Assembly: GCA_945862435.1 (NCBI GenBank)
Contig: CAMAXX010000019.1
Coordinates: 1-52,692, forward strand
Reading direction: 5' to 3'
Source: Pseudorhodobacter antarcticus
Lineage (GTDB): Bacteria > Pseudomonadota > Alphaproteobacteria > Rhodobacterales > Rhodobacteraceae
DNA: 52,692 nucleotides
Shown: in pieces, positions 27,934 to 46,834 of the stretch
Layout of the letters: each line of letters begins with the position of its first letter
How positions within the stretch are numbered: position 1 is the first letter of the stretch
Made by a program: the position numbers and the translations under genes
Notes under the pieces: model-generated
What the model was told of the DNA's origin: nothing
Database searches by the model: none
What the model saw: the letters and a program-made list of their open reading frames with translations, nothing else

Positions 27934-27953
27934 TTGTTTCTTCACAAGAATAA
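27934..27953. promoter_or_regulatory. Weak copy of the shared methylamine-region motif
   Basis: TTGTTTCTTCACAAGAATAA matches the consensus TTTTTYCTTG-N(3-4)-GRAAAA only partly but has its own dyad (CTTGT...ACAAG). It lies 39 bp before tdm and 49 bp before the EamA gene. Confidence 0.35.
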
Positions 27954-28001
27954 CAACCATCCAACGATGGCACAAGCACGACTTTTGCGGAAGGACACAA
28001 A

Positions 28002-28859
28002 ATGCTGGCACTGATCTGCGGTTTAACAGCAGCCTGCGCTTGGGCGGTGCATGACCTTTTGGTGCGCAAGATCGGGCAACGGGTGCGTGTATTGCCGATG
28101 ATGCTGGTGGTTTTTGCCGCGGGTTTGGTGGCTTTGGCACTGCCAACTGCGCTGATCGCCGATTGGGGCGCAATGACAGCGCCCGCCTATGGCTTTTCGG
28201 CTGTGGCAGGGCTTGCCTATGCGGTGGGCATGGGCGCGCTTTACCGCGCCTTTAGTCTGGCCCCCGTGCGTCTGGTTGCCCCAATTCTGGGGTCTTTTCC
28301 AATGATCTCGCTGGGGTTCGCGGCCTTCGGCGGCAAGGCGGTGTCGCTGATAGAACTGCTTGCGGTTTTGGCGGTTGTGGGCGGGATCGTCATTGTGGCG
28401 CTGACTGGGCGGGCCGAAGCAGGCCAAAGCCATGGCACGCGGCCAGGCGAGGCGATGCTTTGGTCGGTGTTGGGGAGTGTCGGCTTTGCGGCAAGCCTTT
28501 GGCTGGCGCAAGAAGGGGCGCGGCAGGGTGATGAAATGGCCTCGATTGCGGTGACGCGTGTGGCGGCGCTGGCCGTTGTCTTTACCATAGTACTTGCCGT
28601 GCGGGTGCCTTTGCGCGCACCCACTGGCACAGGGCGCCCCCTGGCGCTGATGGGGGTTCTGGATGCCCTTGCAATCAGCCTTGTCACCCTGTCGGCTCGT
28701 CTGCCCAACCCAGAATATGCCGCCATCAGCTCGTCCCTTTTTGGCGTGCTAACCATCCTTCTAGCGTGGAAGTTCCTAAAGGAAGCCGTTCTTCCCGTGC
28801 AATGGCTGGGCATCATCACCGTCTTCGCAGGGATTGCAGCGCTGTCTCTGCAAGGCTAA
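28002..28859 (+). CDS. EamA/DMT family transporter
   Basis: A 285-residue inner-membrane protein with ten predicted hydrophobic segments in two EamA repeats; the second repeat ends FLKEAVLPVQWLGIITVFAG. Drug/metabolite transporters move small organic molecules; the substrate is unknown. It is divergent from tdm and shares its promoter region, so export or uptake of a methylated amine or by-product is possible but unproven. GGAAGGACACAAA precedes the ATG. Confidence 0.85.
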   Translation: MLALICGLTAACAWAVHDLLVRKIGQRVRVLPMMLVVFAAGLVALALPTALIADWGAMTAPAYGFSAVAGLAYAVGMGALYRAFSLAPVRLVAPILGSFPMISLGFAAFGGKAVSLIELLAVLAVVGGIVIVALTGRAEAGQSHGTRPGEAMLWSVLGSVGFAASLWLAQEGARQGDEMASIAVTRVAALAVVFTIVLAVRVPLRAPTGTGRPLALMGVLDALAISLVTLSARLPNPEYAAISSSLFGVLTILLAWKFLKEAVLPVQWLGIITVFAGIAALSLQG

Positions 28860-28878
28860 GGCGCGGTGGCCTTATGGG

Positions 28879-29877
28879 CTATTCTGCTGCCACAGGCACA
28901 GGCTGGTTTAGGCCCGAGGCGAGACGGCGTTCATCTTTGGGGCTGACGCCGAACAGTTCGTGATAATGCCGCGCCATTCGGGCCAATGTCACATAGCCTA
29001 CAGCCACAGCAATCTCGCGCAGGTTATCATTAGAATAGAGCACCCGTTGCCGCGCCTTGGCCAGCCGCAAATGGCGGTAATAGCGCAGCGGGCTTTGCCC
29101 CGTTTCCCGTTTGAACAGCCGCTCAAAATGCCGCCCCGACATGTCCACTGCCGCCGCCACGTCAGGGATGCGAAGCGGGTCTTCGACATGGGTTTCGAAA
29201 AGCCGTATCGCCTTGCGGATGGGCGGGGTCAGGCGGTCGGCGGTGGATGCGGTACGCGCCACGGGCACCTTTTGGCTTGCATCCTCATCGCGCACAAAGG
29301 GGTGCTGGAACCAGCACGCAACTTCGGTCATGCATTGGCGGCCCAGACGTTCCTCGATCAGCCGCAGCATCAGATCAAACACCACGCCCGCGCCAGACGC
29401 CGTGATGCGCCGCTTATCGCGCAAAATCAGCGCCTCTGAGGCCTTTACATCGGGGAACTCTGCCTTGAAAGCAGCCTCATAGCACCAATGAACTGAACAG
29501 CCGCGCCCCTCCATCAGGCCCGCGCGCGCCAGCGGAAATATCCCGCCCGAAAACGCGCCCAGCGTTAGCCCCGTGCGATCAAGCCAGCGCAGGCGCGCGG
29601 GGCTTTGGCGCGGGTCAGCAAATTCGGCGGTGGGCGGCGAGATCAGATACAGGTGATCCACGCCCGCCAGTTCGGCCAAGGTCACGTCAGGCTGGAACCG
29701 CACTTCGGCAGAAGATCGCACAGGCGCATTGGTTTCTGCCACCAACTGCCATACAAATTCGCGCCGCCCCATAATTTCATTAGCCGCGCGCAAAGGCTCG
29801 ATCGCCGAGGTCAAGCACGCCATCGGAAATCCTGGAAACATCAGGAATCCAAAACGCAGCGGGCCCTCGCCAAGCAT
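28879..29877 (-). CDS. GlxA-type AraC family transcriptional regulator
   Basis: A 332-residue regulator. The N-terminal DJ-1/PfpI-like domain (RFGFLMFPGFPMACL) lacks an obvious catalytic Cys. The C-terminal AraC DNA-binding domain spans about 225-325 (AAVDMSGRHFERLFKRETGQSP, ending LGVSPKDERR in family style). Regulators of this class control carnitine, glycine betaine and dimethylglycine catabolism in Pseudomonas (CdhR, GbdR). GGAGACAGGAA before ATG 29877 sets the start. It lies 13 bases after the heme-subunit gene and is probably the last gene of the dmm operon. Confidence 0.87.
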   Translation of the reverse strand: MLGEGPLRFGFLMFPGFPMACLTSAIEPLRAANEIMGRREFVWQLVAETNAPVRSSAEVRFQPDVTLAELAGVDHLYLISPPTAEFADPRQSPARLRWLDRTGLTLGAFSGGIFPLARAGLMEGRGCSVHWCYEAAFKAEFPDVKASEALILRDKRRITASGAGVVFDLMLRLIEERLGRQCMTEVACWFQHPFVRDEDASQKVPVARTASTADRLTPPIRKAIRLFETHVEDPLRIPDVAAAVDMSGRHFERLFKRETGQSPLRYYRHLRLAKARQRVLYSNDNLREIAVAVGYVTLARMARHYHELFGVSPKDERRLASGLNQPVPVAAE

Positions 29878-29890
29878 TTCCTGTCTCCTG

Positions 29891-30958
29891 TCAGTCTTCG
29901 GGCCACCAACCGGGCGAGGTGGGCTGACCATCGTCATACTGTGACAGCCACTGGGTCATCTCATCGCGGTTGCGCAAAAAGCCTTTGTAGGCGGCCAGAT
30001 CAGGGTGCAGATCGCGCACCACGCGGTGGAGGCGGCGGCCCCATTTTGGCACTGTGACCAGCTCTTCAAACTTGCCAAGGTAGGCGCGAATATCAAAGCA
30101 AATCGCGTTAGACCGTGGCAGGCGGTACAGCGTCTGCAGTTCGACCCGCAGGTGCATCATATGGCCCATGTTCTTTGGCGTTAGCGCGGTGCGCATATGG
30201 CCCCAGTCGGGATATGTTTCTGGCGCAGTGTCCAGCAGCGGGTTCACCGTCATCGTCCAGTTGTAACGCCGCACGGGTGAGCCCTGCTGCAGCTTCATCA
30301 GAAACTTAAGCGCACGATCAAAAATGCCCTTTTCATGTGCCAAAGGCACAGGCGCGTGCCATTCGTGAAAGTTCATTCCGATGTTGAAATCAAGCGACCA
30401 ATCGGCCTGCGTGGTCACCATTCCCGCATCCACCCACAGCGTGCCTTCGCGTTCATCTTGCAAGGTAAAATCACCTTGGGTCTGGCGGCTGATGTATTCC
30501 ATTGGCCCATACGGTAGGGTGGACTCGTCTAGAAAGGTGAACTTCTGGTCAATGCCCAAGGGGCGGTTGATCCAATGCCAGCGGTTCCCATCCTTGGCCA
30601 GCGAAAACCACTGCGGGTATTCGCGCGCCTTGGTTTCCATAATAAGTTCCAGCAGATCCCATCCTGCCAGCGTCATATGCGGCAAGGATTGGCAGCGCAG
30701 CGGGTCGCTGGCCAGCACGCGCGCGCGGTCGCGCATCTCACTTAGGTAATGCTCGTCCACGTCAAAGGTATGCTCAAAGACCGACCCTTTGCGCCCTGCC
30801 ACATGCGGCTCCATGTTGACCGAATACATGTAATCGTCGCGGTCAAACGGAAACGGAAAGCGGCGGATCGCGGCGGGAGAATTGCGATAGGTGAAGTCGT
30901 CGCAATAAGTCTCGTCGCGAAAAAAGTCATCAAAGCCGTATTTGAAATCAAGGCTCAT
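29891..30958 (-). CDS. Dimethylamine monooxygenase heme subunit (DUF3445, HODM alpha-like)
   Basis: A 355-residue protein of the heme-dependent oxidative N-demethylase family. Family-type stretches include PFPFDRDDYMYSVNMEPH near the N terminus, WDLLELIMETKAREYPQWF, and the LRVELQTLYRLPRSNAICFDIR region. It is the catalytic oxygenase subunit converting dimethylamine to methylamine and formaldehyde with electrons from the adjacent reductase. Published subunit letters differ between species, so no symbol is given. AGGAGCGCGCG precedes the ATG. Confidence 0.9.
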   Translation of the reverse strand: MSLDFKYGFDDFFRDETYCDDFTYRNSPAAIRRFPFPFDRDDYMYSVNMEPHVAGRKGSVFEHTFDVDEHYLSEMRDRARVLASDPLRCQSLPHMTLAGWDLLELIMETKAREYPQWFSLAKDGNRWHWINRPLGIDQKFTFLDESTLPYGPMEYISRQTQGDFTLQDEREGTLWVDAGMVTTQADWSLDFNIGMNFHEWHAPVPLAHEKGIFDRALKFLMKLQQGSPVRRYNWTMTVNPLLDTAPETYPDWGHMRTALTPKNMGHMMHLRVELQTLYRLPRSNAICFDIRAYLGKFEELVTVPKWGRRLHRVVRDLHPDLAAYKGFLRNRDEMTQWLSQYDDGQPTSPGWWPED

Positions 30959-30967
30959 CGCGCGCTC

Positions 30968-32535: not shown

Positions 32536-32576
32536 CTTGTCTGCACTTTGCCCATTGATCTGTTCCTAAACGCTCT

Positions 32577-32613
32577 CGCGACGGGCCTGCCAAACGGGGG
32601 CAGGCCCGTCGCG
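32577..32613. other. Strong intercistronic stem-loop in the dmm operon
   Basis: CGCGACGGGCCTGCC (32577-32591) and GGCAGGCCCGTCGCG (32599-32613) form a perfect 15-bp stem in the gap between the GcvT-like gene and dmmA. No U-run follows on the minus strand, so it is more likely an RNA-stability or processing element than a full terminator. Confidence 0.7.
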
Positions 32614-32626
32614 GGGTGGCGCAGTG

Positions 32627-33766
32627 TTATCCCTGAACGGTGCGGCGTTTCTTGTCGATGTCGTAGAACGGCAGGGATGCCGACTTGACCTGTATCGGGC
32701 CATGCGTGCCGCAGCGCACTTCCAAAGCAGTGCCGTTATTGGCATCGGCCACGGGCAGGCGGGCGATTGCCACAGTCCAGTCGTTCAGGGGCGAGTGCAT
32801 TGCTTGGGTGACAACGCCCACCTTGACGCCATCTTTAAACACGGGCGCGCCGTTGCCGGGCACATTCTTGCCTTCCAGCATCATGCCAGAAATCTTGAAC
32901 CGCTCGCGGCCCTTTAAACGGTAATGCTCTTCGGCACCGCGAAAGCCAACCTTGCCGGGCGAGACGGTGAAATCAAGGCCCAGTTCCCACAGGGTGTCAC
33001 CCGGGCCTTCGTTTTCGAACGGATACATTTCCGAATTATCAAACGGAAAGAACAAAAGATACGATTCGGTGCGCAGCATATCCAGCGTGGTAAAGCGGCA
33101 CGGGATGATGCCCATGCTGGCGCCTTCTGCTAGAATGCGATCCCAGATCATTACGGCATCTTGCCCACGGCAAAAAATCTCATAACCACGCTCGCCCGTG
33201 TAACCCGTGCGGCTGATGGTGATCGGCTTGCCAAACAGGCTTGCGCCCATATGGCTGAAATAGGCCAAATTGCGAATGCCTGGAATGTGCTTTTCCAGAT
33301 AATCCACCGCCAGCGGCCCTTGCAAGGACAGATCGTGCAAATTGTCGTCAAAACGCACCGACACATCGCGCCCCGTGGCGGCCATGGTCAGTTGTTCATG
33401 CCCTTGGCCCGACCCATGCACAACCATAAAGCTGTCTGGCCCCATGCGGTAAATCACACAGTCATCCACGAACTTGCCCGCGTCGTTCAGCATACAGGCG
33501 TAAACCGCGCGGCCCGGCATCAGCTTTTCCATGTTGCGCGTGGTGGCGCGTTCAATGACATGGGCGGCTGCATGGCCCGTGATATGCACCTTTTTCAGGC
33601 CCGATACATCCATAAGGCCCGCCTTGGTGCGGATCGCCATGTATTCGGCATCGGGGTCGCCTTTCTCATAAGACCAAGCGGTGCCCATGCCCGACCAGTC
33701 TTCCAAGTTAGAGCCAAGCGCGCGGTGGCGGTCACCCAGCGTTGAAAAGCGCCAAGAATTGGTCAT
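32627..33766 (-). CDS. GcvT-like (aminomethyltransferase family) protein of the dmm operon
   Basis: A 379-residue protein with the GcvT fold: an N-terminal folate-binding domain with TGYTGERGYEIFCRG near residue 190 and a C-terminal barrel (GVVTQAMHSPLNDWTVAIARL). It is the first gene of the dmm operon and is expected to trap the formaldehyde released by dimethylamine oxidation on tetrahydrofolate. It is the fourth dmm gene of roseobacters (dmmDABC); which letter applies was not verified. GGGAGA before ATG 33766 sets the start; the open frame upstream covers a regulatory motif. Confidence 0.85.
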   Translation of the reverse strand: MTNSWRFSTLGDRHRALGSNLEDWSGMGTAWSYEKGDPDAEYMAIRTKAGLMDVSGLKKVHITGHAAAHVIERATTRNMEKLMPGRAVYACMLNDAGKFVDDCVIYRMGPDSFMVVHGSGQGHEQLTMAATGRDVSVRFDDNLHDLSLQGPLAVDYLEKHIPGIRNLAYFSHMGASLFGKPITISRTGYTGERGYEIFCRGQDAVMIWDRILAEGASMGIIPCRFTTLDMLRTESYLLFFPFDNSEMYPFENEGPGDTLWELGLDFTVSPGKVGFRGAEEHYRLKGRERFKISGMMLEGKNVPGNGAPVFKDGVKVGVVTQAMHSPLNDWTVAIARLPVADANNGTALEVRCGTHGPIQVKSASLPFYDIDKKRRTVQG

Positions 33767-33842
33767 CTGCAGTCTCCCTGAGCTACGTTCATTTTGGGCA
33801 AGTTTGTGAGGCTTCGCGGCGAAAATCAATAATGAAGTGCAA

Positions 33843-33866
33843 TTTTTTTTCTTGCCAGAAAACATT
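33843..33866. promoter_or_regulatory. Shared regulatory motif upstream of the dmm operon
   Basis: TTTTTTCTTGCCAGAAAACA within this span has perfect arms TTTTCT and AGAAAA and matches TTTTTYCTTG-N(3-4)-GRAAAA. It lies about 80 bp before the first dmm start. A partial second copy (ATTCTTGCTTAAAAAA) follows at once. Confidence 0.55.
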
Positions 33867-33876
33867 CTTGCTTAAA

Positions 33877-33903
33877 AAAGGGGCCACTTTCGCAGCCCCT
33901 TTC
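33877..33903 (-). terminator. Rho-independent terminator of the APC transporter gene
   Basis: On the minus strand AAAGGGGC-TGCGAAAGTG-GCCCCTTTTTT forms a GC-rich stem with a run of six T, 23 bases past the transporter stop. Confidence 0.85.
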
Positions 33904-33925
33904 GGATTAAGCATAAGGCGCGCCT

Positions 33926-35689: not shown

Positions 35690-35900
35690 GTCCCTTTTCT
35701 CCTGTTGAACTCGGCGGATGCTGGGAGGCACCTTGCCACCCCCTCCGCACGTTGATTTTCAAGTTACCCTCCTGCCTTACGTCTGACTGGCTGGGCCTTG
35801 TCTCCTTGTTCCTACGTGACCGCATATCGGCGTAGACGATTTATGTACTGCGACGCGATGCCACATTGAAAGCACGAGGCCGCTCGCAACGCGAGAAGAA

Positions 35901-35920
35901 TTTTATCTTTTGGGGAAAAA
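35901..35920. promoter_or_regulatory. Shared regulatory motif upstream of the APC transporter
   Basis: TTTTATCTTTTGGGGAAAAA aligns with TTTTTYCTTG-N(3-4)-GRAAAA; a further half-like TTTCCTTGG follows. It lies about 210 bp before the transporter start. Confidence 0.45.
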
Positions 35921-35980
35921 ATGTTTCCTTGGGGTCGGGCGGCCCAAGCTGCCATGGGTCGAACTGCCTTAATTTTAAAC

Positions 35981-36028: not shown

Positions 36029-37372
36029 TCAGTTTTCTAGATAGCTTTCCATCGAATCTTCCAGTGCATGTTTCCACGGCGTGTGGTGCACTGGGGCCAT
36101 CGTGCCCGTGATGACGGATTTGTAGGCATTGTCGCGAAATGCCATGACGTCTTTTTTCTTATGCTCTTTCCACTCGAAGAAGGCCTCACAGGCGCCGTCA
36201 ACGTCAAAGGTCGGATAGTCAGTTTCTGCGACCAGTTCCTTTATGTAGTCGCCTTGATAGTGGATCGCATCGTGGGCGTCTTGGCCTGCATCTTCGCCCG
36301 CCACGCGGTCTGCCACGTCTTTTTGCAGCGCATTTTTGTCAGACGGAATCGCAATGCGCCCCATAATTGCATCGCGCACCCACCAAGCTTGGGCATCGAA
36401 CATGTTGAAGGTAAACCATTGATCTTGCATGCCGATGTAAAACAACTTGGGGTTATGCACCCATGCGACACCTTTATACAAGTCCGCCGTTGCCAAACGG
36501 TTTGCGGTTTTTAGACGCAGATCGTCGGGCAGGTAGGGGAAGTGGTGCTTGTAGCCTGTGCACAGTATGATGGCGTCGATTTTCTTCGAGGTGCCGTCCT
36601 TGAAATAGGCGGTATCCTCGTCCATCCGCAACAGCGCAGGGACTTCTTGCCAGTTGTCGGGCCAGTCAAAGCCCATTGGCGCGTTGCGATAGGCCACAGT
36701 GATCGACTTGGCCCCATATTTCCAGCACTGGCTGCCGACATCTTCGGCTGAATAGGACGAGCCCAGCAACAATAGGTCTTTGCCCGTAAATTCGCGCGCG
36801 TCGCGGAAGTCGTGGGCGTGCATCACGCGGCCATGGAATTTGTCGAATCCAAGATATTCTGGCACGCTGGGCGTGCTGAAATGGCCCGAAGCTACGATCA
36901 CATGGTCGAATTCTTCGTCATACATGCTGTCCTTTTTCAGATCATGCACGGTGACGGTGAAATTGCTTTTATCCTTGTTGTAGCGCACCATCCGAATAGT
37001 GGACGAAAAGCGGATCCAATCCCGAACCCCAGCCTTTTTCACGCGGCCTTCGATATAGTCAAACAGCACTGCACGTGGCGGATAGCTGGCGATCTGTTTG
37101 CCGAAATGCTCTTCAAACGAATAGTCGGCAAATTCCAGCCCCTCTTTTGGGCCGTTCGACCAAAGGTAGCGATACATCGAACCATGAACGGGTTCGCCAT
37201 GCTCGTCCAAACCGGTGCGCCAAGTATAGTTCCACAGGCCACCCCAGTTGGATTGCTTTTCAAAGCAGACCACTTCGGGAATCTCGGCCCCTTTGGCCTG
37301 AGCGGACTGGAACGCGCGCAACTGCGCAAGCCCCGACGGCCCCGCACCAATGACGGCTACTCTTTTCTTCAT
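36029..37372 (-). CDS. tmm: Trimethylamine monooxygenase
   Basis: A 447-residue flavin-containing monooxygenase oxidising trimethylamine to its N-oxide with NADPH and O2. It has the FAD loop [13 protein letters not shown], the NADPH loop [12 protein letters not shown] near residue 205, the FMO-type stretch [11 protein letters not shown] and the conserved [18 protein letters not shown] region. The whole sequence closely follows roseobacter Tmm proteins, including WYF-rich [22 protein letters not shown] five bases before ATG 37372 sets the start; a GTG two codons earlier would sit on that site. Confidence 0.97.
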
Positions 37373-37459: not shown

Positions 37460-37480
37460 ATTATTCCTGCTGTGAAAAAT
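37460..37480. promoter_or_regulatory. Shared regulatory motif upstream of tmm
   Basis: ATTATTCCTGCTGTGAAAAA aligns with the consensus TTTTTYCTTG-N(3-4)-GRAAAA; it lies about 90 bp before tmm. Confidence 0.5.
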
Positions 37481-38149: not shown

Positions 38150-39457
38150 TTAAATATCCAGCGTGTTTTCGGTTTCCCACTTTGAAAAATGCGACGCATA
38201 GCTGTCCCATTCTTTGTGCTTCAGCTTTAGGAACGCCGACGAGAATTCTTCGCCCATCATGGATTTCAGCGTCTTGTCCTTGTCAAACTCGCGCAACGCG
38301 TCCAGCAGGTTAAGCGGAAGTTTCGGCGCGTTTTTCACCGTATGGCCCATCTGGTACATATCGATGTCATAGCGCCGCCCAGGATCGGCCTTGGTACGTA
38401 CCCCGTCCAGACCTGCGGCCAAAATCACCGCCTGCATCAGATAGGGGTTAGCCGCCCCGTCTGGCAAGCGCAACTCAAACCGCCCCGGGCCTGGCACGCG
38501 CACCATATGGGTGCGGTTATTGCCTGTCCATGTCACAGTATTGGGTGCCCATGTGGCCCCCGAAGACGTGCGCGGCGCGTTGATGCGTTTATAGCTGTTG
38601 ACCGTTGGGTTGCAGATCGCAGCTAAGGCGCTGGCGTGCTTCATGATGCCGCCTAGGAAATGGCGACCCTGATCTGACAGGCCCAGCTCTTTCGACTTAT
38701 CCGCAAAAGCGTTGGTTTTGCCATCCAATGACCAAACCGAGATATGCGCGTGGCAGCCCGAACCCGTTAGGCCCTTGAACGGCTTGGGCATGAATGTGGC
38801 GCGTAGCCCGTGTTTTTCGGCCACCGATTTCATCATAAACTTGAAAAAGCTATGCTTGTCGGCGGTTTGCAGCACATCGTCATACTTCCAGTTCATCTCG
38901 AACTGGCCAGTGGCATCTTCGTGGTCGTTCTGATAGGCCTCCCAGCCCAGTTCCAGCATATAATCGCAGACCTCGGCGATGCAGTCATACTGGCGCATAA
39001 CGGCCTGCTGGTCGTAGCAGGGCTTTTCGGCGGTGTCATAGGGGTCGGCGATCTTGTCGCCTTCGGGCGTGAGCAAAAAGAATTCAGGCTCGACCCCCGT
39101 TTTCACCCGCAAGCCATCTTTGGCGGCCTCTTCGATCAGGCGGCGCAGCACGTTGCGCGGGGCCTGTGCCAACGGCTGTTCTTCCATCACGCAGTTAGAG
39201 GCAAGCCATGCCACTTCGCGCTTCCATGGCAGTTGAATGGCCGATTCGGGATCGGGCACCGCCATCATGTCGGGGTGCGCGGGGGTCAGATCTAGCCACG
39301 TGGCAAAACCAGCGAAGCCAGCCCCGTCCACTGCCATGTCATTGATCGCTTGCGTTGGCACCAGTTTCGCACGCTGCCCACCGAACAAATCGGTATAGGA
39401 CACCATGAAATACTTTACGCCTTTATCCTTGGCCCATTTGGCAAGATCTTTCGCCAT
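38150..39457 (-). CDS. gmaS: Gamma-glutamylmethylamide synthetase
   Basis: A 435-residue member of the glutamine synthetase fold (GlnT/type III-like). Expected segments are present: GVEPEFFLL near residue 120, the GSGCHAHISVW region with the ATP-site His near 230, and NRTHMVRVPGPGRFELRLPDGAANPYL near 315. It condenses glutamate and methylamine with ATP. Its place at the end of mgsABC, and the tmm-tdm-dmm genes around it, support GmaS over ordinary glutamine synthetase. GGAGG seven bases before the ATG. Confidence 0.94.
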   Translation of the reverse strand: MAKDLAKWAKDKGVKYFMVSYTDLFGGQRAKLVPTQAINDMAVDGAGFAGFATWLDLTPAHPDMMAVPDPESAIQLPWKREVAWLASNCVMEEQPLAQAPRNVLRRLIEEAAKDGLRVKTGVEPEFFLLTPEGDKIADPYDTAEKPCYDQQAVMRQYDCIAEVCDYMLELGWEAYQNDHEDATGQFEMNWKYDDVLQTADKHSFFKFMMKSVAEKHGLRATFMPKPFKGLTGSGCHAHISVWSLDGKTNAFADKSKELGLSDQGRHFLGGIMKHASALAAICNPTVNSYKRINAPRTSSGATWAPNTVTWTGNNRTHMVRVPGPGRFELRLPDGAANPYLMQAVILAAGLDGVRTKADPGRRYDIDMYQMGHTVKNAPKLPLNLLDALREFDKDKTLKSMMGEEFSSAFLKLKHKEWDSYASHFSKWETENTLDI

Positions 39458-39502
39458 GTTAAACCTCCCTGTCGTTTTTATGTTTTGTTAAGGGGGGGCG
39501 GC

Positions 39503-40831
39503 TTAGAAGCCGCCATTCCGCCCAGGTATCCAGTTGGTGCCCGCCAAAGGCACTCCCGCCATTGCAGATGCTTCGATGGTCAACGAACACAGGTCTTCTG
39601 GTTCCAGATTGTGCAAGTGGTTCTTGCCGCAAGCCCGCGCGATGGTCTGCGCTTCTAGCGTCATCACCTTAAGGTAGTTCTTCAAGCGGCGGCCGCCCAG
39701 AACAGGATCAAACCGCTTGGACAGTTCGGGGTCTTGGGTGGTGATTCCGGCAGGGTCACGGCCTTCGTGCCAGTCGTCATAGGCGTCTGCCGTTGTGCCC
39801 AGCTTTTGATACTCCTCTTCCCAAATAGGATCATTATCGCCCAGTGCGATCAGTGCGGCAGTGCCAATGGCCACCGCATCCGCACCCAGCGCCATTGCCT
39901 TTGCCACATCGGCCCCAGAGCGGATACCGCCCGACACGATCAGTTGCACTTTGCGGTGCATGCCAAGGTCTTGCAGCGCCTTCACCGCCTGCGGAATACA
40001 GGCCAAGATCGGCATGCCGACATGTTCGATGAACACATCCTGCGTCGCCGCCGTGCCGCCCTGCATACCGTCCAGCACCACCACATCTGCCCCCGCCTTC
40101 ACCGCCAAAGCGGTGTCGTAATAGGGGCGCGCGCCGCCGATTTTCACATAGATCGGCTTTTCCCAATCGGTGATTTCGCGAATTTCCATGATCTTGATCT
40201 CCAGATCATCAGGGCCAGTCCAGTCAGGATGCCGACAGGCCGAGCGCTGGTCAATCCCCTTTGGCAGGTTGCGCATATTGGCAACCCGATCCGAGATTTT
40301 CTGACCCAGCAGCATACCGCCGCCGCCTGGCTTTGCACCTTGGCCCACCACAACTTCGATGGCGTCTGCACGGCGCAAATCGTCGGGGTTCATGCCGTAA
40401 CGGCTGGGCAGATATTGATAGACCAGCGTTTTGGAATGGCCGCGCTCTTCTTCGGTCATGCCGCCGTCACCTGTGGTGGTCGAGGTGCCTGCTGCAGATG
40501 CCCCACGGCCCAGCGCCTCTTTTGCGGGGCCAGACAGCGCACCAAAGCTCATGCCCGCGATGGTGATTGGAATTTCCAAATGGATTGGCTTTTTGGCAAA
40601 ACGGGTTCCAAGCCAAACATCGGTCGCGCATTTTTCGCGGTAGCCTTCTAGCGGATAGCGCGAGATTGACGCGCCAAGGAACAGAAGGTCATCGAAATGC
40701 GGCAGATGCCGCTTGGTTCCGCCGCCGCGAATGTCATAGATGCCCGAGGCCGCAGCACGGCGGATTTCCGCGTTGATCGCAGGGGTGAAGGTGGCCGAGT
40801 AGCGTGGCGGTGTTTTGGGGAATTCGGTCAT
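39503..40831 (-). CDS. mgsC: N-methylglutamate synthase subunit C (FMN-binding GltB-like)
   Basis: A 442-residue protein equal to the FMN-binding synthase domain of glutamate synthase. It shows GMSFGALSGPAKEALGRGA, GKSLVYQ-like and GDGGMTEEER segments near 95-140, then GAKPGGGGMLLGQKIS. The catalytic barrel continues with KIGGARPYYDTALAVKAGAD. It makes N-methylglutamate from gamma-glutamylmethylamide and 2-oxoglutarate together with MgsA and MgsB. It lies 9 bases after mgsB. Confidence 0.93.
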   Translation of the reverse strand: MTEFPKTPPRYSATFTPAINAEIRRAAASGIYDIRGGGTKRHLPHFDDLLFLGASISRYPLEGYREKCATDVWLGTRFAKKPIHLEIPITIAGMSFGALSGPAKEALGRGASAAGTSTTTGDGGMTEEERGHSKTLVYQYLPSRYGMNPDDLRRADAIEVVVGQGAKPGGGGMLLGQKISDRVANMRNLPKGIDQRSACRHPDWTGPDDLEIKIMEIREITDWEKPIYVKIGGARPYYDTALAVKAGADVVVLDGMQGGTAATQDVFIEHVGMPILACIPQAVKALQDLGMHRKVQLIVSGGIRSGADVAKAMALGADAVAIGTAALIALGDNDPIWEEEYQKLGTTADAYDDWHEGRDPAGITTQDPELSKRFDPVLGGRRLKNYLKVMTLEAQTIARACGKNHLHNLEPEDLCSLTIEASAMAGVPLAGTNWIPGRNGGF

Positions 40832-40840
40832 TCTCTCGCC

Positions 40841-41530
40841 TCAGTAAGCCGACGCATTGTCGATGTTAAAGTTATATAGTTTGCGGGCAGAGCCATAGCG
40901 CTTGAACTCTTCGGGCCGCGCTTTGCCGTCGGCCTCGCCGCGTTTCAAAAGATCGGACAGAAGGGCGATATGTTCGGGACGCATCTCTTTTTCGATACAA
41001 TCCGCGCCAAGCGATTTGACCGAACCGCGCACGAACAAACGCGCCTCATACAGGCTGTCGCCCAGCGCCTCGCCTGCGTCGCCCAAGACAACCATGTTGC
41101 CCGATTGCGCCATAAAGCAGGACATGTGGCCAATGCTGCCATGCACGACAATGTCGATGCCTTTCATCGAAATGCCGCACCGGCTAGACGCGTTGCCCTT
41201 GATTATCAAAAGGCCACCGCGCCCCGTGGCCCCCGCATATTGGCTGGCATCACCATCGATGATGACAGTGCCTGACATCATGTTTTCCGCCACACCAGGC
41301 CCGGCTGATCCTTTGATGCGGATCGTGGCCAGCTTGTTCATGCCTGCGCAGTAATAGCCCGTAGATCCGCGCACTGTGATGTCCACTGGCGCATCAACGC
41401 CAGCCGCAATCGCATGCGCGCCCTTGGGGTTGATTACCTCCCACGCGGTCATGTTGGTCTGGCCTTTCAGCGCGTGCAAAGACGAATTCAGCGCGCGCAG
41501 CCCCTCTTTACCCAGATCGAAAGTCTGCAT
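40841..41530 (-). CDS. mgsB: N-methylglutamate synthase subunit B (GXGXG domain)
   Basis: A 229-residue protein corresponding to the beta-helical C-terminal (GXGXG) domain of glutamate synthase. Repeats include VRGSTGYYCAGMNKLATI, IKGSAGPGVAENMMSG and IDGDASQYAGATGRGGLL. It is structural and links amidotransferase and synthase parts. The start MQTFDLG follows the mgsA stop by 4 bases; AGAGA just before the ATG serves as ribosome-binding site. Confidence 0.93.
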   Translation of the reverse strand: MQTFDLGKEGLRALNSSLHALKGQTNMTAWEVINPKGAHAIAAGVDAPVDITVRGSTGYYCAGMNKLATIRIKGSAGPGVAENMMSGTVIIDGDASQYAGATGRGGLLIIKGNASSRCGISMKGIDIVVHGSIGHMSCFMAQSGNMVVLGDAGEALGDSLYEARLFVRGSVKSLGADCIEKEMRPEHIALLSDLLKRGEADGKARPEEFKRYGSARKLYNFNIDNASAY

Positions 41531-41534
41531 TCTC

Positions 41535-42431
41535 TCAACGCTCCCAGAAGTAGACGGTGGCGGGCTCTGGCTCCCAGACGCGGGCAGTTTCGATGCCCGG
41601 TAGGTTGACCAGCGCGCGGTATTCGCTGCCAAAGGCAACGTATTGATCGGTTTCGGCCATAACGGCGGGTTTGCAAGCAATAGGGTCACGCACCACGCCA
41701 AAGCCGTTGCGGGTGCCGACGACAAAGGTAAAGAACCCGTCAAGATCGGTCAGCGTCGCCTCAAGTGCGCGGCCAAGGGTCTCGCCCGTTTGCAATTTGT
41801 GACTGATGAAAGCTGCGCCAACCTCGGTGTCGTTTTCCGTCTCAAACGTCATGCCCAGACGCTTCAACTCGCGCCGCACGCCGTTGTGATTCGACAAGCT
41901 GCCATTGTGCACAAGACACTGATCGGGCCCCGTCGAAAACGGATGCGCGCCCATGGTGGTGACAGCGCTTTCCGTGGCCATACGGGTATGCCCAATGCCG
42001 TGGGTGCCACCCATCTTGGCCACTTCAAAGCGGGATGCCACATCTTTTGGCAGGCCGACCTCTTTGAAAATTTCGATATTCTCGCCCGAAGACATCACCT
42101 TGACCTCTGGCCGCAGATGCGCAACTGCCGCGCGCGCCGCGTCGAGTTGGCCCAAGGGAACCTCCAGCACGGCATGGGTCGATTTCACCTGCATCGCCAC
42201 GGGCGCGCCGATAGCCTCTTTCAAATCACCATCCAGATCCTTGAAATCCTTATCAGGTTTCGCCGACTGTAAGGTAAGCTTGCCCAGCCCTTTACCCGCC
42301 GAAGAATAGATCGCGATGCCAGCAGAATCAGGCCCGCGATCTGTCATAGTGATAAGCATGTCTGTCAGCATGGCCCCTAATTGGGGTTCAAGCTTTGGGT
42401 CTTTTAAAAATAACCCTACGATTCCGCACAT
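41535..42431 (-). CDS. mgsA: N-methylglutamate synthase subunit A (class II amidotransferase)
   Basis: A 298-residue Ntn-type glutamine amidotransferase domain. Cys2 in MCGIVGLF is the nucleophile; RGPDSAGIAIYS and GHTRMATESAVTTMGAHPF carry the substrate-binding residues, and VHNGSLSNHN the oxyanion loop. In this pathway it would release methylamine from gamma-glutamylmethylamide into the synthase channel. It leads the operon mgsA-mgsB-mgsC-gmaS. GGAGG eight bases before the ATG; the shared motif lies 75 bp upstream. Confidence 0.94.
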   Translation of the reverse strand: MCGIVGLFLKDPKLEPQLGAMLTDMLITMTDRGPDSAGIAIYSSAGKGLGKLTLQSAKPDKDFKDLDGDLKEAIGAPVAMQVKSTHAVLEVPLGQLDAARAAVAHLRPEVKVMSSGENIEIFKEVGLPKDVASRFEVAKMGGTHGIGHTRMATESAVTTMGAHPFSTGPDQCLVHNGSLSNHNGVRRELKRLGMTFETENDTEVGAAFISHKLQTGETLGRALEATLTDLDGFFTFVVGTRNGFGVVRDPIACKPAVMAETDQYVAFGSEYRALVNLPGIETARVWEPEPATVYFWER

Positions 42432-42505
42432 GGATTCGCCTCCTTTTTGATTTACTTAACTTCAGTGGTAGCACCGAAGAATCCGCATTTCAACTGTCAA
42501 GAAAC

Positions 42506-42526
42506 TTTTTTCCTTGTTGGGAAAAA
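42506..42526. promoter_or_regulatory. Best copy of the shared motif, between mgsA and the permease cassette
   Basis: TTTTTCCTTGTTGGGAAAAA is a near-perfect dyad (arms TTTTTCC and GGAAAAA). It lies 75 bp before mgsA and about 150 bp before the divergent small membrane gene, so one site could control both directions. Confidence 0.6.
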
Positions 42527-42673
42527 TCTACAAACTGCCTAAAGATTAGGCAGGTTTTGCTTGACAGATTGTCGCAGTTATCTTTCCCTACATTAAACAA
42601 ATTTGCCAGACAGAGAAACGGCGGAGAGGCCCAGCCAAATCTGGCAAGCCAACAGGGCCCAAGGGAGGGAAGC

Positions 42674-42955
42674 GTGTTAGACCTAAATCAACGGATTGAG
42701 GCGATGCACAAACGCGATGTCGCTGTGGCGTGGGCGTTTGTCATCGGTATGTGGTTCTCAGTGATTTTTGTTGCAATCTCCACTTGGGGGCTTGCCCCCT
42801 CGGGCGCCGCCCGCGTCGCGCTACTTTTTGCTGGTGCGATGATTCTTTTGTTCAACACGGCAGCCATTATGGCCATGCTGCGCCACTACCGCGACGACCG
42901 CGATTTCATCTACGGCCTTGATATCAGGTTTCTTGACGAAGCACGGGGGCGCTGA
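42674..42955 (+). CDS. Small two-helix membrane protein (93 aa), first of permease cassette
   Basis: A 93-residue protein with a short amphipathic start (LDLNQRIEAMHKRDVAVAW) and two hydrophobic segments, about residues 17-37 and 44-65. It ends in a charged tail (RHYRDDRDFIYGLDIRFLDE). I do not recognise the family. The start is GTG with GGGAGGG five bases upstream. It is followed after 2 bases by another small membrane gene and then the permease, so it is probably an accessory subunit. Confidence 0.7.
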   Translation: MLDLNQRIEAMHKRDVAVAWAFVIGMWFSVIFVAISTWGLAPSGAARVALLFAGAMILLFNTAAIMAMLRHYRDDRDFIYGLDIRFLDEARGR

Positions 42956-42957
42956 AC

Positions 42958-43338
42958 ATGGCACATTACACTCCCCCTGCCCAAAGCAAGCTTGGCCAAA
43001 TCATTGACGTGATCGTTCTGGTCACGCTGACGGTAGGCGCTCTATTTGCGCCGTTGTGGCTGAACCTGGCGGGCGCGGCAAAAACGGTCGCAACCCCCGT
43101 GGAAAACCCGACATGGGAGGCGCTTGGCCAGAACGCCGTCCAAGCAGGCCAATATGAGGCCCTTGGATATACCCCCGAAAGCGCGCACGACTTAATCCTT
43201 GCGCGCTTTGACTACAGTTTCACCAGTGGAGCGCTGATAGTCATGATCGTGGTGATCGTCGCCTATTACGCGCTGCTTCTGAAGTTTTCCGAATCGGAGT
43301 ACCGCGAGGTCATCTCCGAAAAATTTGGCAAGAAATAG
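42958..43338 (+). CDS. Small two-helix membrane protein (126 aa), second of permease cassette
   Basis: A 126-residue protein with hydrophobic segments at about 15-38 and 88-110. The loop of about 50 residues between them (TPVENPTWEALGQNAVQAGQ, ESAHDLI) is predicted to face the periplasm. The tail is charged. Family unknown. It lies 2 bases after the preceding gene and 6 before the next one. Confidence 0.72.
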   Translation: MAHYTPPAQSKLGQIIDVIVLVTLTVGALFAPLWLNLAGAAKTVATPVENPTWEALGQNAVQAGQYEALGYTPESAHDLILARFDYSFTSGALIVMIVVIVAYYALLLKFSESEYREVISEKFGKK

Positions 43339-43344
43339 GGGGCT

Positions 43345-43518
43345 ATGATGGAAACTTGGAACTACATAGAATACGCGGCCTGGGGCCTATCGGCCCTGTT
43401 CGGCCTGCTAATGGTGATGGATTGGATCAAGACCGACAGCACCTATTCCGAAGATGTCCTGACCTCTTCTCGCGAAGGCGAGCTTGAGGCCATGACAGAA
43501 GAATCCCACAAGGGCTGA
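43345..43518 (+). CDS. Single-helix membrane microprotein (57 aa), third of permease cassette
   Basis: A 57-residue protein starting MMETWNYIEYAAWG, with one hydrophobic segment at about 9-26 and an acidic cytoplasmic tail (STYSEDVLTSSREGELEAM). GGGGG precedes paired ATGs. It lies 7 bases before the permease gene. No family recognised; operon position and composition support it being real. Confidence 0.65.
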   Translation: MMETWNYIEYAAWGLSALFGLLMVMDWIKTDSTYSEDVLTSSREGELEAMTEESHKG

Positions 43519-43525
43519 GGGCATC

Positions 43526-44962
43526 ATGGCACAAACTGACATCACATCTTCTGAACGCGATGGCATGGGGCCGCATGGCACCAAAGTTGGCCTTTTGCGT
43601 GTACTTGGGCCTGCCCATGTCTGGGCACTGGGCGTTGGCATCGTTCTGGTGGGCGAATACATGGGCTGGAACTTTGCCGTCGGCAAAGGCGGGGCCTATG
43701 CCGCGCTGATGGCCTGCTGGTTTGCTGGCATCCTGTATTCCTGTGTCGCAATGATCGATTCCGAAGTGACATCGACCGTTGCCGCCGCTGGGGGGCAGTA
43801 CACCCAAGCCAAACACATCGTCGGCCCGCTGATGGCCTTTAACGTGGGCCTTTACCTTGTGTTCGCCTATACAATGCTAGAGGCGGCGAACGCGATTACG
43901 GCGGGCTACCTTGTTTCCGTCGTAGCCACGATGACGGGCTATGGCGGTGCATTAGACCAGCGTCCGTTCATTATCTTGGTCATCATGTTCTTGGCATGGC
44001 TGAACTATCGCGGGGTTTTGGCGACGCTGACATTTAATCTTGTCATCACCTCCATCGCCTTTATCGCCATTATTGTTCTGTTCTTGTCGACCAGCGGAAT
44101 TATCGGCGACGGCATCATGCAACATGCGGCTCTGTTCGAAGGGCACGAAAAGCCCTACGGCTGGATCGGTATTGTCGCGGCCATGCACTTTGGCCTGTGG
44201 TTCTATCTGGGCATCGAAGGCACCACCCAAGCTGCCGAAGAAGTCCGCTCGCCCGCCCGCGCGCTGCCCTTTGGCACGCTGGCTGGCATCATGACGCTTC
44301 TTATCGCAGCAACACTGACGTGGTATATCTGTTCGGGCGTGCTGCCGTGGGAGTTTCTGGGCGATGGCGTGAACGGTTCGGTAGCGCCGCTGTTTGACAC
44401 TGCGCGGCTGTCAGGATCGAATGCGCTGATCTGGTTCTTGGGCATTGGCACCCTTTTTGCCACGCTTGCCAGCGCCAACGGCTGCATCAATGACGCGTCC
44501 CGCGCGTGGTTCGCACTGGGGCGTGACAAGTATTTGCCCGCTTGGTTTGGGGCCGTGCATCCGCAATACCGCACGCCCTACCGATCGATTGTGTTCTTGG
44601 TGCCGATCGCGCTGATCTTCGCCTTGGGCGCGCCTTTGGATCAGGTCATCACTTTCTCGATCTTGTCCGGGCTTTTGGGTTATACGTTCATGCCGCTGAA
44701 CATTCTGATGTTCCGCAAAAAGTGGCCCATGGGAACGATCAAGCGCGGCTATGAACATCCGTTCCACCCGATCCCGGCGATTGTGCTTTTGTGCCTGTGT
44801 GCGTTCACGTTCTTTGCGGTGTTCCTTGGCTATGGCACCCAACTGGTTGCGATGATTGGCTTTTACATCGTCGTGTCGCTGTGGTTCCACTTCTGGCGCT
44901 ATCGCTTTGTGAACCGTGGCGCACAGTTCACCATGCCTTGGCCGAAACCTCTGGGCTACTGA
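43526..44962 (+). CDS. Ethanolamine-permease-like APC transporter
   Basis: A 478-residue inner-membrane carrier with 12 hydrophobic segments. The N-terminal helix reads WALGVGIVLVGEYMGWNFAVGKGG and TTQAAEEVRSPARALPFGTL lies midway; both are typical of the ethanolamine/amine branch of APC permeases. Placed divergently from mgsABC-gmaS with a shared motif, it is a strong candidate for uptake of methylamine, another amine or N-methylglutamate. GAGGGCATC precedes the ATG. It is preceded by three small membrane genes and followed by a hairpin. Confidence 0.88.
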   Translation: MAQTDITSSERDGMGPHGTKVGLLRVLGPAHVWALGVGIVLVGEYMGWNFAVGKGGAYAALMACWFAGILYSCVAMIDSEVTSTVAAAGGQYTQAKHIVGPLMAFNVGLYLVFAYTMLEAANAITAGYLVSVVATMTGYGGALDQRPFIILVIMFLAWLNYRGVLATLTFNLVITSIAFIAIIVLFLSTSGIIGDGIMQHAALFEGHEKPYGWIGIVAAMHFGLWFYLGIEGTTQAAEEVRSPARALPFGTLAGIMTLLIAATLTWYICSGVLPWEFLGDGVNGSVAPLFDTARLSGSNALIWFLGIGTLFATLASANGCINDASRAWFALGRDKYLPAWFGAVHPQYRTPYRSIVFLVPIALIFALGAPLDQVITFSILSGLLGYTFMPLNILMFRKKWPMGTIKRGYEHPFHPIPAIVLLCLCAFTFFAVFLGYGTQLVAMIGFYIVVSLWFHFWRYRFVNRGAQFTMPWPKPLGY

Positions 44963-44977
44963 TTCTGAACAGCATCC

Positions 44978-45007
44978 GCTGGCCCGCCCACAGTGTGGCG
45001 GGCCAGC
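44978..45007. terminator. Strong hairpin after the permease gene
   Basis: GCTGGCCCGCC and GGCGGGCCAGC form a perfect 11-bp stem with an 8-base loop, 16 bases past the permease stop. No T-run follows, so it may end, stabilise or process the transcript. Confidence 0.6.
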
Positions 45008-45023
45008 GACTTGAAAGCGCTCG

Positions 45024-45692
45024 ATGACCTCTCACATCCTTCTTGCGGCAATATTCGGGGCCACCGCGCTTTGGCTGGCATGGACGACGGTTCAGGCCCA
45101 CAAAGCCCGCAAGGCCGCGCGCGCCAGCTATTTCCGCAATGTGGAACCCCTGTTCAATAAGGTCGCGACCCGCATCCAGCCCACTGGGTTTGCACGGATG
45201 ACGGCGCATTTTGATAGTGCCGCCTTTGACCTGCAGGCCATTCCCGACAGCCTGACATTTCGCAAACTGCCTGCGCTGTGGGTCATGCTGACGCTTCCCG
45301 AACCAATGCCAGTAAAGGCAACGCTTGACATTATGGCCCGCCCTGCGGGCAATGAGCCGTTTTCCCATTTCGCCAATCTACCCCAATCTCTGCCCTGCCC
45401 GCCCAGCCTGCCCGACGGCACGGCCCTGCGCAGTGACGATGCCAGTGGCGTGCCGCCACTAGAATTGATCGCGGCGCATCTGGCTGTATTCGACGACCCA
45501 AAGGTCAAAGAACTGGTGATCTCGCCAAAGGGCCTGCGCCTTGTTATCCTAGCGGATGAGGCAGAACGCGGCCGCTTTTTGATTTTCCGAGATGCCGAAG
45601 TGGGAACGTCGCCCCTGCCCGCCGTGCGCATGACGCCCCTGATTTCGGCGCTTATCGCGCTGCGCGACACATTAACAAAGGCCCCCCAATGA
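45024..45692 (+). CDS. Hypothetical membrane-anchored protein (222 aa)
   Basis: One N-terminal hydrophobic segment (residues 3-20, ILLAAIFGATALWLAW) is followed by a soluble domain of about 190 residues with no motif I know. Basic residues after the helix (HKARKAARA) suggest the domain is cytoplasmic. It overlaps the next gene by ATGA and follows the permease gene by about 60 bases. Confidence 0.65.
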   Translation: MTSHILLAAIFGATALWLAWTTVQAHKARKAARASYFRNVEPLFNKVATRIQPTGFARMTAHFDSAAFDLQAIPDSLTFRKLPALWVMLTLPEPMPVKATLDIMARPAGNEPFSHFANLPQSLPCPPSLPDGTALRSDDASGVPPLELIAAHLAVFDDPKVKELVISPKGLRLVILADEAERGRFLIFRDAEVGTSPLPAVRMTPLISALIALRDTLTKAPQ

Positions 45693-45967
45693 CCGCACCG
45701 AAAGCCCCGCCCCTGCCATATCTTGTGCTTGCCATCGCCACCATGCTGCCCGGCATGGGGCAGGTGATGAACCGCCAGCCGCTGCGCGGGCTGATGTTCG
45801 TATTCTTTGCCGTGCTTTTGGGGGCCTTCACGCTAAAAACCGCCGCCCCCGACGTGTCTTTTGTTGGCAAAACTGCGGGCGCGCTGTTTGTTTGGGCCAT
45901 GGCGCTGATGGACGCCTACCGCACCGCCCGATTGCGCCGCGCGATTTGGGAGAGGGACGCGAAGTGA
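45689..45967 (+). CDS. Small membrane protein with TM2/DUF5683-like PG-x-GQ motif (92 aa)
   Basis: A 92-residue protein with hydrophobic segments near 10-20, 33-50 and 60-75. The stretch LPGMGQVMNRQPLRGLMFVFF resembles the PGxGQxYxGxxxKG pattern of TM2 and DUF5683 proteins. Function unknown. It overlaps the previous gene by 4 bases, so the two probably act together. Confidence 0.68.
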   Translation: MTAPKAPPLPYLVLAIATMLPGMGQVMNRQPLRGLMFVFFAVLLGAFTLKTAAPDVSFVGKTAGALFVWAMALMDAYRTARLRRAIWERDAK

Positions 45968-45993
45968 ACATAGCGGGGGTTACATCCCTTAGC

Positions 45994-46114
45994 GGGCGTT
46001 CGGCGGGAAAACAGTCCACTGGACTGTTTTCTGCCCCGCCTCCTCCAGCCCTCGCAGGCGTGCTCGGGCGTTCGGCGGGAAAACAGTCCACTGGACTGTT
46101 TTCTGCCCCGCCTC
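45994..46114. repeat. Tandem pair of 49-bp palindromic (REP-like) elements
   Basis: Two identical copies (45994-46042 and 46066-46114) are separated by 23 bases. Each contains AAAACAGTCCA-C-TGGACTGTTTT inside GGCGGG...CCCGCC, an almost perfect cruciform. The second copy touches the stop codon of the XRE-cupin gene. Placed between convergent genes, they may end transcription in both directions. Confidence 0.85.
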
Positions 46115-46772
46115 ACCCCTGAGGATACGAGATGACAGAAAGATAGCGGGCGGGCAGTTTGACCAGCACTTCTGGCCCATGCGGCGCATCGGCGTCGAAG
46201 AACAGCGTATCGCCCGGCTTTAGCGGATAGACGTGGTCGCCGTGGCGGTAATCCACCTCGCCCTCTAGCATATACAGCAGTTCTAGCCCTTCGTGTTGAA
46301 AGGCTGGAAAGGTGTCACTTTCGGTGGTCAGAGTGATCAGATAAGGTTCTACCACCACACCCGAAGAATTGGATCCGATATGGCCAAGCAGGTTATACTG
46401 GTGCCCCGCCCGTGTGCCGCGCCGCTCAATCTCTAGGTGCGCGCCCGCTTTGACATGCTGCGCCTCGCGCCGTTCTTCATAGCTGCGAAAGAACGCGGTC
46501 ACAGGCACAGAAAAGGCATGCGACAGCACCTGTAGCGTGGTCAGGCTGGGCGAGGTGTTGCCGTTTTCAATTTTCGACAGCATCCCGATGGACAGGCCAG
46601 TCACCGCCGCCAAATCTGCCACTGTAATGCCCTGTTGGCGGCGAAAGTTCCGCACCTCGCGGCCAATAGCTGCCTCTAGATTGCGTTCTGTGATTTCGCG
46701 AACCCGGTGAGGGTCTTGGTCAAACGCTGGTTTTGTGCGCGGCAAGGCAACAGGATCGGGCAAGTCACTCAT
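46113..46772 (-). CDS. XRE-family regulator with C-terminal cupin domain
   Basis: A 219-residue regulator. The helix-turn-helix spans about residues 35-90 (VADLAAVTGLSIGMLSKIENG, TSPSLTTLQVLSHAF). The cupin sensor domain fills about 130-215 (HEGLELLYMLEGEVDYRHGDHVYPLKPGDTLFFDADAPHG). Relatives such as PuuR control amine and amino acid catabolism. It is downstream of mgdABCD on the same strand, and a copy of the shared motif lies 41 bp before its start, which suggests it binds that motif and controls itself. The start at ATG 46772 is preferred over a GTG one codon earlier. Confidence 0.88.
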   Translation of the reverse strand: MSDLPDPVALPRTKPAFDQDPHRVREITERNLEAAIGREVRNFRRQQGITVADLAAVTGLSIGMLSKIENGNTSPSLTTLQVLSHAFSVPVTAFFRSYEERREAQHVKAGAHLEIERRGTRAGHQYNLLGHIGSNSSGVVVEPYLITLTTESDTFPAFQHEGLELLYMLEGEVDYRHGDHVYPLKPGDTLFFDADAPHGPEVLVKLPARYLSVISYPQG

Positions 46773-46812
46773 CACGGGGCCTCATTAACCTTATGGCTGA
46801 ATTCATACGGAT

Positions 46813-46834
46813 GTTTTTCATACAAGGAAACAAC
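46813..46834. promoter_or_regulatory. Shared motif upstream of the XRE-cupin regulator
   Basis: On the minus strand TTGTTTCCTTGTATGAAAAA matches the consensus with a spacer one base shorter; 41 bp before the regulator start, in autoregulation position. Confidence 0.5.

Follow-up and report, generated by a model that had tools for sequence, protein, structure and literature searches.

Known regulators of methylamine breakdown and of the XRE-cupin type

By breaking down methylamine, Rhodobacteraceae feed nitrogen cycling. The regulation of this pathway was described in 2026 for Ruegeria pomeroyi DSS-3. There, the gene of TmaR, an AraC-type master activator, lies between dmmDABC and mgdABCD; TmaR switches on tdm, dmm, gmaS-mgs and mgd, has a mild repressing effect on tmm, and in vitro binds the promoters of all these genes as well as that of tmaR. 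A GntR-type regulator, TmoR, represses tmm (PMC13390433). Loss of tmaR lowers target transcripts 2.5- to 12.9-fold, and a block of the pathway lowers mgdA approximately 500-fold on trimethylamine (TMA); the inducer of the methylamine genes was left open, and the main text of that study contains none of the words “motif”, “XRE” or “cupin” (PMC13390433). Here, a candidate operator of a further regulator of this pathway, an XRE-cupin protein, is described in a 52,692-nucleotide stretch of Pseudorhodobacter antarcticus DNA (GCA_945862435.1, contig CAMAXX010000019.1), which is hereafter called the window.

In the sections of PMC7901475 drawn on here, the eight XRE-cupin proteins studied in Pseudomonas aeruginosa are all inhibitors, which act locally, binding beside their own genes at sites that are palindromic where determined; PauR and its Escherichia coli homologue PuuR belong to polyamine breakdown via gamma-glutamylation, and the sites of PauR include a palindromic one and one located upstream of the pauR gene. 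An XRE family gene is marked in methylamine clusters of Rhodobacteraceae in the legend to Fig. 5 of PMC7574528, where, in the portion of that paper considered, it is a figure label with no function, operator or regulon attached. Among the matches listed in the open-licence literature, judged by title and abstract, the regulon and operator presented below appear undescribed, and the kind of system is known.

A 16-bp dyad in methylamine promoters

The element is a 16-bp dyad, approximately TTTYCCTnnAGGRAAA, which is sometimes doubled at a spacing of 20–21 bp. We consider it quite probable, from the comparison of genomes, that the XRE-cupin protein encoded at 46113–46775 uses this dyad as its operator; the protein would be a local methylamine regulator beside TmaR and probably a repressor. 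Sequence comparison establishes the dyad, the phase in which it lies, and that it co-occurs with the XRE-cupin gene. A palindromic matrix, on which the palindromic constraint was imposed, gives TTTccCt..aGggAAA, and both halves were also obtained from an unconstrained search. An earlier sequence-only reading of the window had described the recurrent motif as TTTTTYCTTGN{3,4}GRAAAA; written in this form it matches the window exactly only once, at 42507–42526 (0 matches in 100 shuffles), and what recurs in several methylamine promoters is the 16-bp dyad.

In the 2.74-Mb assembly to which the window belongs, the core TTTYCYTGTNNGRAAA occurs exactly only at 42509 (mgsA) and 46815 (the XRE-cupin gene), and with one mismatch at ten further places, including 33847 upstream of dmm. 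At two or fewer mismatches it gave 131 matches versus 114 for the reversed pattern, without clear enrichment; because the relaxed consensus was not clearly enriched in the genome, matrices were used.

The first matrix was derived from XRE-cupin promoters of 11 other genera, with P. antarcticus excluded from training, and reached a log-likelihood of 211 versus 68–81 in 10 single-base shuffles. Its best distinct sites in the window were 42507 (mgsA/permease), 46815 (XRE-cupin gene), 42583 (permease), 35901 (TMAO, trimethylamine N-oxide, permease), 33847 (dmm) and 37461 (tmm); this ranking upholds the sites that the sequence-only reading had placed at these promoters, with the mgs/permease copy as the best, and, together with the held-out test given below, the proposal of a shared operator tied to the local XRE-cupin gene.

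A second, palindromic matrix was built from 60 clade promoters of other genomes and scored against 800 kb of the P. antarcticus genome. The mgsA dyad scored 19.5, with no equal or better place in this background, the dmm dyad 18.0 (one such place) and the XRE-cupin dyad 17.35 (two). At 17.35 or above there are three window sites versus two background places (Poisson p 3.5e-4, for a threshold chosen afterwards). The sites of the TMAO permease (35903, score 12.75, 24 equal or better places) and tmm (37462, score 12.1, 33 places) are weak alone, and their assignment would rest on conserved position in relatives. For tdm/eamA, the weak site proposed earlier (27937) scored 8.6 with 168 equal or better places and does not stand by itself, but it is accompanied by a second dyad at 27916, and the tandem sum is 22.8. 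Tandem sums of 29.5 at mgsA (42489 and 42509) and 22.2 at the permease cassette (42583 and 42603) were likewise obtained, and all three exceed the best sum in the 800 kb (19.4). An exact wide tandem pattern had no match in the P. antarcticus genome. As a background rate, 3.7% of AT-rich pieces of this genome pass the single-dyad cut-off and 0.5% the tandem cut-off.

The second dyads at mgsA (42489) and tdm/eamA (27916) and the permease tandem (42583 and 42603) were absent from the sequence-only reading. A half-site that it had placed at the cupin gene beside tmm (37583) was rejected, as its score of 2.9 is equalled or bettered at 1000 places in the first 400 kb of the genome.

Promoter geometry and conservation in relatives

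In the window, the dyad of the XRE-cupin promoter (46815–46830, minus strand) covers the spacer and the -10 element of TTGATG-N17-TATGAA. The strongest dyad lies on the mgsA side of the gap between mgsA and the permease cassette (42509–42524), centred 23.5 bp upstream of the mgsA -35 element TTGAAA, which is overlapped by the second dyad of this tandem (42489–42504). On the permease side, the first dyad (42583–42598) begins 17 bp past TTGACA (42561–42566), over the presumed -10 element, and is followed by the second at 42603–42618. Upstream of dmmD (start 33766) the dyad at 33847–33862 is centred 25.5 bp upstream of the -35 element TTGATT, and upstream of tmm (start 37372) that at 37462–37477 is centred 12.5 bp upstream of TTGACA. 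The weak TMAO-permease dyad (35903–35918) lies 214 bp upstream of the gene start, and the tdm/eamA tandem comprises 27916–27931 and 27937–27952.

The family-wide scoring is not independent for the clade xre, mgsA, dmmD and tmm promoters, which trained the matrix, the 250-bp mgsA training pieces extending into the permease side; the tdm, mgdA and TMAO-permease promoters are outside the training set. The dyad covers the spacer and -10 element of TTG-N3-N16-18-TA in the XRE-cupin promoters of 22 of 23 clade members, a phase that shuffling of the 20 bp upstream of the dyad produced in 1.8 promoters on average and in 7 at most. The dyad centre is located 24.5–26.5 bp upstream of the -35 element in 46 of the 53 dmmD promoters scored and 11.5–14.5 bp upstream in 24 of the 25 tmm promoters scored; at mgsA the distance is 23.5–24.5 bp in 34 of 75 promoters, and a further 34 gave no match to the narrow -35 pattern. 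Tandems were present in 47/88 mgsA promoters of relatives, within 130 bp of the gene start in 12/13 permease cassettes, and in 5/20 tdm promoters. At the TMAO permease, a surrounding block, whose pattern was drawn up by eye from the same sequences, recurs in six of eight relatives, and only two of the eight pass the dyad cut-off.

De novo searches of up to 64 promoters per class (64 of 110 xre and 64 of 88 mgsA promoters) separately recovered the same half-site element from the xre, mgsA, dmmD and tmm classes. The dyad was not recovered from the mgdA, tdm and tmaR classes; for mgdA the best-scoring motif was CATGCGCTATT, which seems to be a conserved stretch at the beginning of the coding region. 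A good single dyad was found in 2/45 mgdA promoters of relatives, about the background rate, and the motif therefore does not cover the whole pathway.

An A/T-rich element in front of bacterial genes could be a mere UP element or a chance match in AT-rich promoters. The rate at which AT-rich pieces pass the single-dyad cut-off, and the relaxed matches that are hardly commoner than those of the reversed control, are compatible with this explanation. However, the dyad is conserved in both of its halves, occupies the XRE-cupin -10 element in nearly the entire clade, exceeds dinucleotide shuffles, and is missing at mgsA in all five tested genomes that lack the XRE-cupin gene; we therefore regard this origin as very improbable.

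Co-occurrence of the predicted operator with the XRE-cupin gene

Among 198 genomes of the family, P. antarcticus included, the XRE-cupin gene was found in 59 (E <= 1e-30), mgsA in 58 (1e-60), tmm in 46 (1e-100), tmaR in 34 (1e-60) and dmmD in 28 (1e-100). XRE-cupin and mgsA genes occur together in 53 genomes, with 6 and 5 genomes having only the one or the other (Jaccard 0.83), and all 28 dmmD genomes contain the XRE-cupin gene; tmaR and mgsA occur together in 24 genomes (Jaccard 0.35).

For a held-out test, composite models were trained on genomes with both regulators (21 tmm and 22 mgsA promoters, including those of P. antarcticus), and an operator was called at p < 0.02 against 200 dinucleotide shuffles per promoter. 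The mgsA test covered 12 of the 29 genomes with an XRE-cupin gene and no close tmaR and all five without an XRE-cupin gene; the tmm test covered 7 of the 13 genomes of the former kind, no upstream DNA having been fetched for six, and 10 of 11 of the latter, as G102 has no upstream DNA. Where the XRE-cupin gene was present without a close TmaR, the operator was called at mgsA in 12/12 and at tmm in 6/7 genomes (the miss being G187), whereas without the XRE-cupin gene it was called in 0/5 and 2/10, the two tmm matches lying over the start codon (G183) and off the consensus (G195). The groups with and without the XRE-cupin gene differ at both promoters (Mann-Whitney, p 1.6e-4 for mgsA and 1.0e-4 for tmm). 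Two genomes with a weak XRE-cupin match (G014 and G024), which were kept apart, had no operator at mgsA. The tmaR promoter scores 6.4 or less in five genomes with tmaR and no XRE-cupin gene; scores in 25 divergent XRE/tmaR gaps, on which the matrix was partly trained, range from 6.5 to 22.6. In these comparisons the dyad follows the XRE-cupin gene and not the AraC gene.

This result bears on the possibility that the motif is a TmaR binding site. AraC-type regulators bind direct repeats, which are resembled by the 20–21 bp repeat of a third half-site or second dyad near the -35 element. The TmaR targets of R. pomeroyi, tmm, tdm, dmm and gmaS-mgs, overlap the motif-bearing genes, and their promoters, like that of tmaR itself, are bound by TmaR in vitro (PMC13390433). 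Nevertheless, the core is a dyad and not a direct repeat, the motif was not seen before tmaR in the five genomes with tmaR and no XRE-cupin gene, and mgdA, a TmaR target, carries the single dyad at background rate, though tandems occur in three of its promoters. The calls at mgsA and tmm in genomes without a close TmaR also argue against a TmaR site, although a distant AraC protein could substitute. Taken together, a TmaR site is an improbable explanation.

Several observations weigh against assigning the operator to the XRE-cupin protein. Two of the 12 mgsA positives have their site at an unusual position: G068, a genome that is 76% complete, at -228, and G134 at -77. Separation of the tmm groups is poorer with the plain 16-bp matrix than with the composite models, the scores being 1.2–12.4 without the XRE-cupin gene (n=10), 9.3–17.4 with this gene only (n=7) and 3.5–18.9 with both regulators (n=21). 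The tested XRE-cupin genomes are mostly best matches, and those without the gene may be more distant. A low-threshold TmaR search was made in 20 genomes (all 7 tmm test genomes, 11 of the 12 mgsA test genomes, G068 being the other, and 7 without an XRE-cupin gene); the AraC proteins of the TmaR-negative genomes show at most 36% identity over long matches and at most 40% over short domain matches, and one of them, in G187 (27% match), is encoded just upstream of tdm, so such proteins might act as TmaR substitutes. Furthermore, mgdA tandems occur in 3/45 promoters versus the 0.5% background, the TMAO-permease and tdm sites are weak, and XRE promoters family-wide pass the clade cut-off in only 48/110 cases, with scores of -5.0 to 9.5 in eight tested genomes with an XRE-cupin gene and no close tmaR. 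Finally, dyads upstream of the -35 element at dmm, mgs and tmm are unlike the usual core-promoter position of XRE-cupin repressors.

Proposed mode of action

Binding, the sign of regulation and the ligand are what we infer from this pattern. A dimer of the XRE-cupin protein would bind the 16-bp dyad, and a pair of dimers would probably occupy one helix face, 20–21 bp apart, at mgsA, the permease cassette and tdm. Because the dyad of the XRE-cupin promoter covers the spacer and -10 element, self-repression seems most likely there, and the permease cassette would probably be repressed in the same manner. Of the autoregulation proposed by the sequence-only reading, a site on the regulator's own promoter is supported within the close clade; outside it the site drifts and is not clearly marked. 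At mgs-gmaS, dmm and tmm, where the dyad lies in fixed phase a short way upstream of the -35 element, the bound protein may block RNA polymerase or TmaR, or help them; the geometry appears to suit repression at xre and the permease and is ambiguous at these three. Blocking would be likelier than helping because the eight P. aeruginosa XRE-cupin proteins are inhibitors in the sections cited (PMC7901475).

The helping role corresponds to an alternative in which the XRE-cupin protein activates some operons from upstream dyads and represses only its own gene and the permease. The fixed distances between dyad and -35 element, 12–13 bp at tmm versus 24–26 bp at mgs and dmm, differ by approximately one helical turn and favour this alternative, and the milder effect of tmaR loss than of the pathway block makes another input likely. 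The second mgs dyad, which covers the -35 element, and the tmm dyad, which abuts it, also suit repression, and the inhibitors of P. aeruginosa offer no precedent for activation in what was considered of PMC7901475; activation is the main alternative, though less likely than repression. In its fullest form, which we likewise think rather unlikely, the protein would be dual-acting, repressing its own gene from the -10 dyad and, from dyads phased near -48 and -60, activating other genes or serving as a partner of TmaR, so that the pathway would be gated together with TmaR while a methylamine catabolite is sensed; if true, this would supply a missing further input of the published TmaR circuit. 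To our knowledge, no non-repressing XRE-cupin protein has been found so far, and a dual-acting one would be the first.

PuuR senses putrescine. In the repressor model preferred here, the cupin domain probably senses an early methylamine product, such as gamma-glutamylmethylamide or N-methylglutamate, and the ligand would release the repressor. The protein would act in parallel with TmaR, not in its place. Its gene is conserved and accompanies mgs even where no close TmaR is present, and both an operator and a set of target genes can be predicted for it in concrete terms. This makes the gap in the published circuit, in which tmaR loss costs far less expression than the pathway block (PMC13390433), directly testable.

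Genes of the locus

The XRE-cupin gene (46113–46775, minus strand; ATG probably at 46772) encodes HTH_3 (1.4e-12) and Cupin_2 (8.8e-13) domains and hence has the XRE-cupin architecture. The nearest solved relative, 1Y9Q, is a good match in the HTH and a weak one in the cupin domain (domain E 0.039), and the best NCBIfam match is PuuR (NF007408, 57.7 bits), below the cut-off of 211, so the protein is not a PuuR equivalog. Of 80 named loci, which do not include R. pomeroyi DSS-3, all but two (L182 and L225) have genes of the mgs, mgd, dmm or gmaS type in the fetched flanks of the XRE-cupin gene; these 78 come from Ruegeria, Roseovarius, Leisingera, Phaeobacter, Marivita, Tabrizicola and others; the closest locus is that of a pond Rhodobacter metagenome-assembled genome (MAG), L243, at 98% identity. 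Genes of 67–90% identity near mgs were also seen in records labelled Hwanghaeella (L223), Granulosicoccaceae MAG (L240) and Rhizobium MAG (L250), which suggests transfer or mis-binned MAGs. Behind the XRE-cupin gene are two identical 50-nt copies (45993–46042 and 46065–46114), each with the palindrome GAAAACAGTCCACTGGACTGTTTTC, of which no other exact copy exists in the assembly; the pair may have arisen by duplication of a terminator or may be a small mobile repeat.

Family scans support a methylamine cluster of tdm, dmmDABC, TMAO permease, tmm, gmaS, mgs-type genes and permease cassette. The products of tdm (25517–28069), the TMAO permease, tmm and gmaS pass family cut-offs; the remaining names, those of dmm, mgs and mgd genes, were assigned in part from gene order and from family matches that are weaker. 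The predicted targets are mgsABC-gmaS (38150–42431, minus strand), the main one, dmmD (32627–33766, minus strand), the first gene of dmmDABC, tmm (36029–37372, minus strand), and the permease cassette (42674–44962, plus strand), in which small genes precede an APC-type permease. Two small genes at 42674–43338 have no NCBIfam or Pfam match, yet are kept beside the permease in close relatives. The dmmD matches of L147, L153, L156, L160, L161 and L165 contain stops, which may come from an upstream-extended query open reading frame (ORF), the real start probably being 33766, and not from broken genes. The sarcosine-oxidase-type subunit genes labelled mgdABCD run from 52049 down to 46941 and are followed by the XRE-cupin gene. 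Beside mgdA, an ORF at 52460–52692 runs off the contig end and has no Pfam match; by eye we take it to resemble the start of a tyrosine recombinase.

The sequence-only reading had proposed a single local regulator, which is unlikely given the background-rate mgdA dyad and an overlooked AraC-type gene (28879–29937, minus strand; HTH_18 1.6e-21, weak DJ-1/PfpI match). This gene lies directly behind dmmC and in many relatives adjoins mgdD; by family and neighbourhood, it is probably the TmaR counterpart. The neighbours of tmm, a cupin protein and the TMAO permease, are not GntR-like in general family scans, in which no search was aimed at TmoR.

Comparison with known systems

The predicted XRE-cupin regulon shares its pathway and overlapping target promoters with TmaR and TmoR, and the window probably holds a TmaR counterpart. 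It differs from the TmaR regulon in that mgd, a TmaR target, carries the dyad only at about background rate, and its regulator is neither AraC-type, as TmaR is, nor GntR-type, as TmoR is.

PuuR and PauR differ in pathway, that of the window being methylamine breakdown via gamma-glutamylmethylamide; in the window, moreover, dyads occur in tandem, several of the sites lie upstream of the -35 element, and a probable AraC-type activator shares the targets. In common with them, the window regulator has the HTH_3 and cupin architecture, and, like PauR as presented in the sections of PMC7901475 considered, it has a predicted palindromic operator, with a candidate site at its own gene that is clear only within the close clade. 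The gmaS product matches gamma-glutamylputrescine synthetase (263.5 bits, below the cut-off). By its family matches GmaS belongs to the glutamine-synthetase type and works by gamma-glutamylation, which makes the parallel with PauR and PuuR a close one.

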